DNA of 51,518 nucleotides from Pseudomonas sp. Ga0074129 (lineage in GTDB: Bacteria > Pseudomonadota > Gammaproteobacteria > Pseudomonadales > Pseudomonadaceae), in the NCBI GenBank assembly GCA_001465025.1, contig LNDO01000077.1, positions 1-51,518 on the forward strand, read 5' to 3'. The notes below the pieces were generated by a model. That model saw only the letters and a list, made by a program, of their open reading frames with translations, ran no database searches and had not been told where the DNA came from. The position numbers and the translations under genes were made by a program. Within the stretch, counting starts at the first letter, position 1. Every line of letters starts with the position of its first letter. Of this stretch, positions 11,169-45,566 are shown in pieces.

Positions 11169-12380
11169 TTAGAGCGCTGCCAGACCGCGTGCCAGATCGG
11201 CCTTAAGGTCGACCAAGTCTTCCAGACCCACAGCAACGCGGATCAGGTTGTCGCGAATACCGGCATTGGCACGCTCGGCCGGAGTCAAACGGCCATGCGA
11301 AGTGGTCGCCGGATGTGCGATGGTGGTTTTCGTATCACCCAGGTTGGTGGTGATGGAAATCACCCGCGTGGCATCGATAAAACGCCAGGCAGCTTCTTTA
11401 CCGCCCGCCACCTCAAAGCTGACCACAGCACCGAAGGCGCTCTGCTGACGCTTGGCCAGTTCATGCTGAGGGTGGCTGGGTAAACCGGCGTAATACACGT
11501 GCTCAATACCGGGCTGCTGCTCCAGCCACTGCGCCAAGTGCAGCGCACTGGCGCAATGGGCCTGCATACGGATGCGCAGGGTTTCCAGGCCTTTGAGGAA
11601 GATCCAGGCATTGAAGGGGCTCAGCGTCGGCCCGGCGGTGCGCAGAAAACCCACCACATCGGCCATCAACTTGGCCGAGCCCGCCACCACCCCACCCATG
11701 CTGCGGCCTTGGCCGTCGATGTACTTGGTGGCCGAATGCATCACCACATCCGCACCGAGCTTGATCGGCTGCTGCAAGGCCGGGGTGCAAAAGCAGTTGT
11801 CCACCGCCAGCAACGCGCCGTTGCGATGGGCGATGTCGGCCAGCGCGGCGATGTCCACCAACTCGGCCAGCGGGTTGGACGGAGACTCGACAAACAGCAA
11901 CTTGGTGTTGGGCTTGAAGGCAGCCGCCCAGCCGTCGAGATCCGCCAACGGCACATAATCAACCTGCACACCAAAGCGCTTGAGGTACTTCTCGAACAGG
12001 CTGATGGTCGAGCCGAATACGCTGCGCGACACCAGCACATGGTCACCCGCACTGCACAGGCTCATGACAATAGCCAGAATCGCCGACATGCCAGACGAGG
12101 TCGCCACGGCTTGCTCGGCCCCTTCCAGCGCGGCGATACGCTCTTCAAAGGCACGTACGGTCGGGTTGGTATAGCGCGAGTAAACATTGCCCGGCACTTC
12201 GCCAGCAAAGCGCGCAGCCGCATCGGCCGCAGAACGGAACACGTAGCTGGACGTCGGATAAATCGCCTCGCTGTGCTCGCCCTCGGGGGAGCGATGCTGA
12301 CCGGCGCGCACCGCCAAGGTGTCGAAGCCGACGCCTTCAAGATCGCTGTCCAGACGTCCCGCTTGCCATTCCTGACTCAT
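11169..12380 (-). CDS. metZ: O-succinylhomoserine sulfhydrylase
   Basis: MetZ makes homocysteine directly from O-succinylhomoserine and sulfide in methionine synthesis, using pyridoxal phosphate. The 403 residues are the full family length. The cofactor Lys is in HSATKYIDGQG, the YSRYTNPT segment is the phosphate-binding tyrosine region contributed by the neighbouring subunit, and SSGMSAI contacts the cofactor. It is the last gene of the accD-folC-cvpA-purF group, the same place as in P. aeruginosa. Start: ATG with AGAGGTAGG just upstream. Two hairpins stand between it and purF, so its expression may be partly uncoupled from purF. Confidence 0.95.
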   Translation of the reverse strand: MSQEWQAGRLDSDLEGVGFDTLAVRAGQHRSPEGEHSEAIYPTSSYVFRSAADAAARFAGEVPGNVYSRYTNPTVRAFEERIAALEGAEQAVATSSGMSAILAIVMSLCSAGDHVLVSRSVFGSTISLFEKYLKRFGVQVDYVPLADLDGWAAAFKPNTKLLFVESPSNPLAELVDIAALADIAHRNGALLAVDNCFCTPALQQPIKLGADVVMHSATKYIDGQGRSMGGVVAGSAKLMADVVGFLRTAGPTLSPFNAWIFLKGLETLRIRMQAHCASALHLAQWLEQQPGIEHVYYAGLPSHPQHELAKRQQSAFGAVVSFEVAGGKEAAWRFIDATRVISITTNLGDTKTTIAHPATTSHGRLTPAERANAGIRDNLIRVAVGLEDLVDLKADLARGLAAL

Positions 12381-39333: not shown

Positions 39334-39358
39334 CAAAATCCCGCATAGCAGGCAAAAA

Positions 39359-39434
39359 TGGCGTCCCCTAGGGGACTCGAACCCCTGTTACCGCCGTGAA
39401 AGGGCGGTGTCCTAGGCCACTAGACGAAGGGGAC
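39359..39434 (-). tRNA. tRNA-Glu (anticodon TTC), copy 1
   Basis: The minus strand folds as a complete cloverleaf of 76 nt with encoded CCA. The acceptor GTCCCCT pairs with AGGGGAC, and the anticodon loop CTTTCAC gives TTC. It is identical to copy 2 at 39625-39700 and is the last gene of the operon. Confidence 0.97.
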
Positions 39435-39498
39435 GAAACCTTCGAAGAACAAGGCCAGCTGATGCTGGCCCCGTGGCAGTTCTTACATCTGCAAAATT

Positions 39499-39574
<76 letters not shown>

Positions 39575-39624
39575 GATTTATCGCCTCTCGGCTCACAGTC
39601 CAAACCAGCACTGCTTTTTGAAAC

Positions 39625-39700
39625 TGGCGTCCCCTAGGGGACTCGAACCCCTGTTACCGCCGTGAAAGGGCGGTGTCCTAGGCCACTAGACGAAGGGGAC
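39625..39700 (-). tRNA. tRNA-Glu (anticodon TTC), copy 2
   Basis: Complete 76-nt cloverleaf with encoded CCA, identical to copy 1. The Glu-Ala pair is repeated with an offset of 266 bases, but the spacers between the tRNAs differ. Confidence 0.97.
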
Positions 39701-39763
39701 GTAACCCTTCTACAACCAACCAGCTTCAAGAGCTGATTGTGGCAAGCCTTACGGCTTTGAAGA

Positions 39764-39839
<76 letters not shown>

Positions 39840-39857
39840 ATCGCAAGGACGGGGCGC

Positions 39858-45088: not shown

Positions 45089-45164
45089 TCCGCGATAGCT
45101 CAGTCGGTAGAGCAAATGACTGTTAATCATTGGGTCCCTGGTTCGAGTCCAGGTCGCGGAGCCA
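45089..45164 (+). tRNA. tRNA-Asn (anticodon GTT)
   Basis: A complete 76-nt cloverleaf: TCCGCGA pairs with TCGCGGA, the anticodon loop CTGTTAA gives GTT, the T-loop is TTCGAGT, and the CCA is encoded. Its last 22 bases are the start of the first of the tandem units described at 45143-45541. Confidence 0.97.
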
Positions 45165-45173
45165 AATTCAAAA

Positions 45174-45198
45174 GTCTCGGTTAAACCGGGGCTTTTTT
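45174..45198 (+). terminator. terminator in repeat unit 1
   Basis: GTCTCGGT and ACCGGGGC form an 8-bp stem with G-U pairs, followed by TTTTTT. It lies nine bases after the tRNA CCA, so it should end the tRNA-Asn transcript. Confidence 0.85.
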
Positions 45199-45322
45199 GT
45201 GCCTGTTGGACTCTCACCAGGGACTGCGTCCCAGGTTATTCGCTAACGCTCACCCCTTCGGGGTCGTGCTAAAGCACGTTCAGCTGCGCTGTCGAATCCA
45301 GGTCGCGGAGCCAAATTCAAAA

Positions 45323-45348
45323 GCCTCGGTTATCGCTGGGGCTTTTTT
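45323..45348 (+). terminator. terminator in repeat unit 2
   Basis: GCCTCGG and CTGGGGC form a 7-bp stem followed by TTTTTT. The loop has changed from that of unit 1, but the stem is kept. Confidence 0.75.
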
Positions 45349-45473
45349 GTGCCTGTTGGACTCTCACCAGGGACTGCGTCCCAGGTTATTCGCTAACGCT
45401 CACCTCTTCGGAGCCGTGCTAAAGCACGTTCAGTTGCGCTGTCGAGTCTAGGTAGCGGAGCCAAATTCAAAAG

Positions 45474-45498
45474 CCTCGATCAACACCGAGGATTTTTT
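45474..45498 (+). terminator. terminator in repeat unit 3
   Basis: CCTCG and CGAGG form a 5-bp stem with an 8-nt loop, followed by ATTTTTT. Both the stem and the loop differ from units 1 and 2. Confidence 0.65.
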
Positions 45499-45566
45499 GT
45501 GCCCGCCAAACTCCAACTAGAGACTGCGCCCTAGAAGTCGCTGCAACAGACCAAATTAAGCACAAT

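Follow-up and report, generated by a model that had tools for sequence, protein, structure and literature searches.

Repeated units behind a Pseudomonas tRNA-Asn gene share a hairpin core, in inverted orientation, with E. coli TLRs

Behind a tRNA-Asn(GTT) gene of Pseudomonas sp. Ga0074129, the last 22 bases of the gene recur in tandem at a spacing of about 150 bp, which raises the question of what these units are, where they came from and whether they do anything for the cell. We analysed the whole contig that carries them, a stretch of 51,518 bp referred to here as the window, and collected the parts of the array in Table 1. An earlier note on this DNA had counted three units in a row. The tRNA end does recur twice and the third remnant is real, but there are only two complete extra units, because the first unit of that count opens with the tRNA's own end. 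Two further points of that description were borne out: units 1 and 2 (149 and 150 bp) are nearly identical, with a repeat search of the window returning a 150-nt family at 45188-45337 and 45338-45487 with 92% identity and TRF giving a period of 150, 2.4 copies and a score of 610, and unit 3 is decaying, its remnant showing neither hairpin core nor third tRNA-end copy by sequence inspection, repeat search and the covariance model R2 described below. A hairpin also follows each tRNA end as claimed, with stems running into T6; folding revealed those of unit 1 (11 bp) and unit 2 (12 bp), which a terminator scan of the window left unreported, picking up the hairpin of the remnant alone.

Table 1 Parts of the array behind tRNA-Asn, in window coordinates.
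Feature	Position	Strand	Evidence and remarks
tRNA-Asn(GTT) gene	45089-45164	+	ARAGORN; Rfam tRNA 71.3 bits; repeated end is the last 22 bases, 45143-45164
Unit 1, 149 bp	45165-45313	+	closes with tRNA 3' end copy 45292-45313, 1 mismatch in 22
Unit 1 terminator-like hairpin and T run	45171-45198	+	fold
Unit 1 antisense T-arm copy	45207-45224	+	inverted repeat, 89% of 18 complementary to 45134-45151
Unit 1 hairpin core with T-arm borders	45233-45299	+	model R2 57.3 bits, E 3.7e-15; inverted relative to E. coli RtT
Unit 2, 150 bp	45314-45463	+	closes with tRNA 3' end copy 45442-45463, 2 mismatches in 22
Unit 2 terminator-like hairpin and T run	45319-45348	+	fold
Unit 2 antisense T-arm copy	45357-45374	+	inverted repeat
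Unit 2 hairpin core	45383-45449	+	model R2 39.6 bits, E 9.4e-10
Decayed unit 3	45464 to ~45541	+	terminator-like hairpin 45474-45491, degenerate T-arm antisense

Each complete unit presents its parts in the same order: the terminator, the antisense T-arm, a three-base loop, a T-arm-like 5' half and the hairpin cluster, after which the unit closes with the 3' half of the T-arm, the acceptor strand and CCA. Read from the sequence, the hairpin cluster lies inside the T-loop of a partial T-arm copy. In unit 1 the final 17 bases match the tRNA end exactly. The gene neighbourhood is ordinary, with Pfam matches upstream to a class I tRNA synthetase (E and Q type), UvrB and a class I/II aminotransferase, and downstream to a convergent MMPL-family protein, a YCF48-like protein and a DUF1329 protein. 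Elsewhere in the window, a tandem duplication at 39355-39840, of period 266, contains two tRNA-Glu/tRNA-Ala pairs.

The repeated end is not a chance event. A survey of the tRNA genes of this genome (41 distinct entries in 30 loci, out of 50 tRNA matches in total) revealed partial 3'-end copies at this tRNA-Asn only; the remaining repeats at the surveyed loci are whole tRNA genes, and the second tRNA-Asn, on contig C36, has no 3'-end copies. Searching relatives with the unit, as the earlier note had proposed, gave a match at E<=1e-3 in 86 of 298 sampled genomes of the genus, of which 32, the genome under study included, reached at least 90 bits. The other 54, characterised from a subset of their loci, have matches that are shorter or weaker, in the form of terminator-like ends, decayed units (G013, G284) or the core in dispersed elements. 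Thirty unit loci were retrieved, and tRNA-Asn lies within the stretch in 28 of these, L026 and L032 showing no tRNA. We also scanned 84,980 species genomes for pairs of tRNA-Asn ends spaced 139-167 bp from each other; this pattern yielded 70 stretches, all named Pseudomonas or Stutzerimonas except L173, a MAG titled Gammaproteobacteria. After pooling both searches and removing duplicates, we counted 81 distinct tRNA-Asn loci with at least one complete unit: one unit in 50, two in 25 and three in 6. Since the units occur in these relatives, the idea of an RNA role, which the earlier note would have abandoned had they been absent from all of them, is not refuted on that ground. Five more tRNA-Asn loci are without an intact unit (L059, L060, L065, L066 and L073), with decayed remnants at L065 and L073. 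At L058 (G255), an insertion that is IS66-like by eye interrupts the second unit, and a piece of the unit end appears again ~2.3 kb further on.

The architecture had been likened to the E. coli tyrT locus, with its RtT units, and this likeness held. The units of that locus are among the tRNA-linked repeats (TLRs) of E. coli. According to the cited passages, E. coli K-12 carries 22 TLRs at ten loci, one to five at each, whose last 18-19 bp are the 3' end of the upstream tRNA or rRNA gene, and their spacing at rrnB is 150 bp (PMC8144298); at tyrT we measured 175-178 bp. The units of the window stand directly behind the tRNA gene in the same manner. Across the 81 loci, the copied end of the first unit is perfect over 22 bases in 76, an identity of which both units of the window fall short by their one and two mismatches. 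At its own cut-offs Rfam reported tRNAs only over the window, and RtT (RF00391, gathering score 45) was unmatched there.

To compare the cores across families, we built model R1 from 40 Pseudomonas and Stutzerimonas cores, and the covariance model R2 from 54 R1 matches at 36 loci of other families, none of them of the window's own family; R2 is not fully independent, as its training set was found with R1. R2 recognises both complete units of the window (Table 1) and eight E. coli TLRs at the three loci examined: all four tyrT-locus units (42.0, 39.3, 39.0 and 36.4 bits), three repeats at argVYZQ (32.0, 31.1 and 22.5 bits) and one in the rrnB T1-T2 spacer (25.6 bits). R2 gave no match at E<=5 across a further 100 kb of MG1655 DNA, nor at the glnX, proM, glyY and leuV stretches, which are without such repeats. 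R1 alone scored the E. coli rtT repeats at 15.4-18.5 bits (E 0.005-0.04) and gave no match on the tyrT-tyrV spacer. By Smith-Waterman alignment, the score of the tyrT-tyrV spacer in the opposite orientation was reached by 0-4 of 500 shuffles and that of one rtT repeat by 17-86 of 500; such pairwise scores are only a hint of kinship, and it is the covariance models that decide. The Rfam RtT model, which is independent of R1, reached its cut-off at three of 17 other-family loci, namely at the tRNA-Gln loci L198 and L193 (68.9 and 54.4 bits) and, just at the cut-off, at tRNA-Ser L203 (45.4 bits), and fell short at 14. The Rfam comparison suggested by the earlier note thus finds RtT behind other tRNAs and not in the window. 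Within the window, R2 also has a weak match at 12256-12329 (15.6 bits, E 0.019).

The earlier note had also held the sequence to be unrelated to that of the tyrT locus. This we reject: the core modelled by R2 is common to the window and the E. coli units, although its orientation to the tRNA is opposite, being inverted in the window relative to all eight E. coli TLRs examined. By the match of its core, the array therefore belongs with the TLRs, and it is a variant of them because of that inversion. In the literature searched, Rudd 1999 being outside its scope, we found no description of these repeats in Pseudomonas. Measured against the cited passages, what is new here is the host genus, the host tRNA, the inverted core and a family wider than described.

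We then asked how far the core structure is conserved. In alignment A2 (40 cores), the 17 named pairs are 99.1% paired and 43 double-change cells stand against a shuffled mean of 15.0 and 0-2 in slid controls; further pair types, at 9 versus 10.0 shuffled, go in the opposite direction. Alignment A4, which was fitted to the structure, is 98.0% paired, with 136 double-change cells versus 37.4 shuffled and 12-23 slid. Judged from these alignments the core structure is maintained, but compensatory changes alone do not prove function, because templated repair of palindromes can yield such changes too. RNAalifold, run on the whole unit, found three of 28 pairs covarying and left the second hairpin gapped, and the core was realigned afterwards. 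Folding of whole units gave z-scores of -2.15 and -1.82.

The loops carry a second signal. Outside Pseudomonas and Stutzerimonas the loop of the middle hairpin is GNA in 48 of 49 distinct modules, read on one constant strand of the core, and within these two genera it is GNA or GNNA on that strand in 67 of 77, so that the loop strand is fixed although the transcribed strand differs between the two orientations. In the other hairpins elsewhere, GNA or GNNA occurs in 47 of 143 and the complementary TNC/TNNC type in none. GNA loops form very stable mini-hairpins in DNA. The fixed strand of the loop favours a constraint that would act at the level of DNA, beside which there may be roles as RNA.

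These data bear on the proposal that the units give rise to a small RNA. Modelled on RrA/RrB/RrF of the E. coli rRNA operons, this reading supposes that read-through of terminator 1 would yield a structured, putative RNA of ~115 nt, cut at the repeated tRNA end and acting as a sponge or ligand. The conserved structure with its compensatory changes is in keeping with it, as are the TLR RNAs that arise in E. coli by read-through between T1 and T2 in rrnA, rrnB and rrnD and, in the cited passages, show interactions with both Hfq and CsrA (PMC8144298). The same passages, however, report that the 19 tRNA-operon TLRs score below 0.01 as CsrA ligands, and they give the TLRs no known function, an early claim for tyrT having been withdrawn (PMC8144298). 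Moreover, with the core inverted, an RNA made here would be complementary to that of E. coli, the GNA loop keeps to one DNA strand in both orientations, the 115-nt core by itself folds no better than shuffles (z -0.56), and units have decayed in some relatives (L065, L073). On balance we consider a small RNA rather unlikely.

How the units change along an array was examined next. Core identity is 0.944 within genomes (41 pairs) and 0.859 between them (600 pairs). Mean 3'-end mismatches to the own tRNA are 0.09 in unit 1 (n = 81), 0.35 in unit 2 (n = 31) and 1.0 in unit 3 (n = 6), the first figure being biased since some loci were picked out by a pattern to which their first two tRNA ends had to conform exactly. 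By a rough test, the terminator-like part is present in 79 of 81 first, 31 of 31 second and all six third units, and a terminator is recognised beyond the final tRNA end of 66 of 80 arrays but not of the other 14. The tRNA T-stem carries a flipped pair in 12 of the 81 loci, and the T-stem base of the units tracks the type of their tRNA in every unit where it could be called. The antisense base in first units is A at all 69 unflipped loci; at the 12 flipped ones it is T in six, deleted in five and A in one. Later units show T in four, A in one and an uncalled base in one at flipped loci, and A in 29, C in one and G in one at unflipped loci.

Control by antisense pairing or by a decoy has to be weighed here: the antisense T-arm would pair with its counterpart in the tRNA precursor, or the repeated ends would titrate the enzymes of 3' processing. 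The antisense base follows the T-stem flip (T at six of 12 flipped loci, A at 69 of 69 unflipped), and this flip needs at least three changes on a tree of 79 flanks, in which two rows (L027 and L125) have absurdly long branches. Yet the same tracking is expected from templated repair of inverted repeats; in addition, loop mismatches are conserved, L013 does not follow, the base is deleted in five loci and the terminator precedes the antisense stretch. Mean antisense scores are 10.5 for the cognate tRNA, 7.2 for other isotypes and 5.8 for shuffles. We regard control of this kind as very unlikely.

The core is found well beyond tRNA-Asn. Over 369 genomes of the class, R1 matched at least 74 at E<=0.05, many of the matches being tandem; repeated 3' ends of the own tRNA were present at 19 of 29 other loci with R1 matches, and 19 of 40 further R1 loci stand behind a tRNA, where by estimate (~50 tRNAs in 4 Mb) well under 1% of matches would fall by chance. 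A phylum-wide search with R2 matched 78 of 398 genomes at E<=0.001, families of another class included, and 23 of 29 newly retrieved loci adjoin a tRNA. Fifty distinct first units, defined by the tRNA end, are distributed over Ser (14), Arg (13), Gln (8), Pro (6), Asn (6, of which five are Pseudomonadaceae tRNA-Asn), Glu (2) and Phe (1). The motif of the middle hairpin is present in 49 of the 50, and R2 matches all 41 other-family loci that hold first units, as expected for loci chosen for their core. The orientation is that of E. coli in 17 of 19 and 18 of 23 other tRNA-linked loci (two samples), the exceptions being tRNA-Asn (L223 of another family and five Pseudomonadaceae loci) and tRNA-Phe (L230).

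At several of these loci the core interrupts a copy of a tRNA. L222 holds, at 1190-1704, three tandem tRNA-Gln copies with the core in each T-loop, followed by an intact tRNA-Gln. Whole tRNA-Ser copies at L210 and L211 have the T-loop interrupted by the core; like the L222 copies, they have an altered 3' end. In other tRNA-Ser copies the core splits the D-loop (L209, L221) or the anticodon loop (L233). All these cases were read by eye, and in G534, G419 and G484 the interrupted copies stand before the intact tRNA. At L221 a single tRNA-Ser is flanked on both sides, by a D-loop copy with the core upstream and a T-loop copy with the core downstream. By eye, the core is also part of dispersed elements (L192, L214-L216, L206, L217-L219 and L242), and in Pseudomonas it occurs in dispersed MITE-like elements (L005, L007 and L038-L057), with L005 and L007 in the genome under study. 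L274 has two core-like clusters within one larger element, which we take to be ERIC-like.

Could each unit instead be the scar of an integration? The earlier note had raised this possibility; here a unit would be the remnant of an element that a tyrosine recombinase had inserted at the 3' end of the tRNA, or else a mini-element mobilised in trans. The directly repeated 3' ends, of which the fresh copies lie beside the tRNA, fit this reading, as do the sites in T-, anticodon- and D-loops elsewhere. Against it, one common core is found at many different tRNA targets, and the integrases whose presence at this site in relatives was to favour it did not appear. PF00589 was absent within 60 kb of tRNA-Asn in ten of ten complete unit-bearing chromosomes (the nearest matches lie ~61-62 kb away, in G113 and G255) and on the 51.5-kb contig itself, which extends 45 kb upstream and 6 kb downstream of the site. 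Nor did any of 50,697 phage or 72,556 plasmid records cover 80% of the tRNA end plus unit, and viral contigs gave no exact match of one module pattern. Two large Pseudomonas phage genomes, MK599315 and LC765218, contain a 32-base stretch that matches, without a mismatch, the tRNA-Asn end together with the bases that follow. The scar reading is left unsupported by these searches, and we judge it unlikely.

Given the directly observed anatomy, the presence in many relatives, the relationship to E. coli TLRs as well as to units that follow other tRNAs, and the compensatory changes, we propose a TLR array of the RtT type, in which a hairpin element in the T-arm copy has been multiplied by exchange between repeated tRNA ends, with a terminator in every unit, and we give this explanation an even chance of being right. 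A hairpin cluster of ~55-70 bp sits in the T-loop of a partial T-arm copy behind tRNA-Asn. Its core may be a non-autonomous hairpin element that lodges in the loops of DNA palindromes, T-loops above all, as suggested by the interrupted tRNA-Gln and tRNA-Ser copies, the D- and anticodon-loop sites and the dispersed elements. The recurring tRNA 3' ends would then allow slippage or unequal exchange, by which copies multiply and are homogenised, so that the freshest units lie nearest the tRNA and distal ones decay; the higher core identity within genomes, the trend with distance and the T-stem tracking point to such exchange with the tRNA. The terminator would be kept in each unit by virtue of its position behind a stable-RNA promoter, and for this reason the putative effect on the cell would most likely be back-up termination and trimming of read-through RNA, not that of a dedicated regulator. 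Set against this explanation are the weak preference for the cognate tRNA, whose T-arm beats every other isotype as antisense source in 15 of 50 units only, the 14 of 80 arrays without a recognised final terminator, the terminator scan that picked up only the remnant's hairpin in the window, the bias in the trend with distance, the dependence of R2 on R1 and the RtT cut-off missed at 14 of 17 loci. The core is, moreover, conserved over dozens of species, as is hardly to be expected of a purely neutral scar; selection on an RNA could also account for it.

A broader proposal, possible but on the less likely side, is that one mobile hairpin module in Pseudomonadota underlies the TLRs, RtT, the rrnB T1-T2 spacer and the Pseudomonas units. 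It would enter tRNA loops (T-, anticodon- and D-) at TCGA-like sites in either orientation and act as folded single-stranded DNA, with the GNA mini-hairpin on one fixed strand, the host tRNA being kept intact by copying of its 3' or 5' half. A small circular intermediate would fit, because the core is inverted here and the order of parts is shifted. How the units spread, and whether the cell gains by them, are matters of inference from these patterns.

In the published accounts cited, TLRs are a little-studied and unexplained feature of E. coli and its kin. In other families the same core follows tRNA genes of seven isotypes or more; it is inverted in Pseudomonas and occurs in dispersed elements too; the inverted copies separate a role as RNA from a role as DNA, which makes the nature of TLRs directly testable. 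The kinship also touches the rrnB T1-T2 terminator cassette, which is widely used on plasmids according to the cited passages (PMC8144298).

Among known systems, the E. coli TLRs (RtT RF00391 and rrA/rrB/rrF) resemble the array most closely in what they share with it: a position behind a tRNA or rRNA gene, a copied end, a similar spacing and a common core. The window differs from them in its genus and tRNA, in its inverted core and in not reaching the RtT cut-off. Integrative elements at tRNA attachment sites likewise have direct repeats of the tRNA 3' end, whereas the array has no cargo, and no integrase nearby in the genomes examined. ERIC, YPAL/RU-2 and other MITE-like palindromes are, like the core, small, structured and dispersed, and YPAL targets span or adjoin dyad symmetry in the cited passage (PMC2229807); in contrast to these elements, the units of the window are fixed behind one tRNA, in tandem and with tRNA ends.
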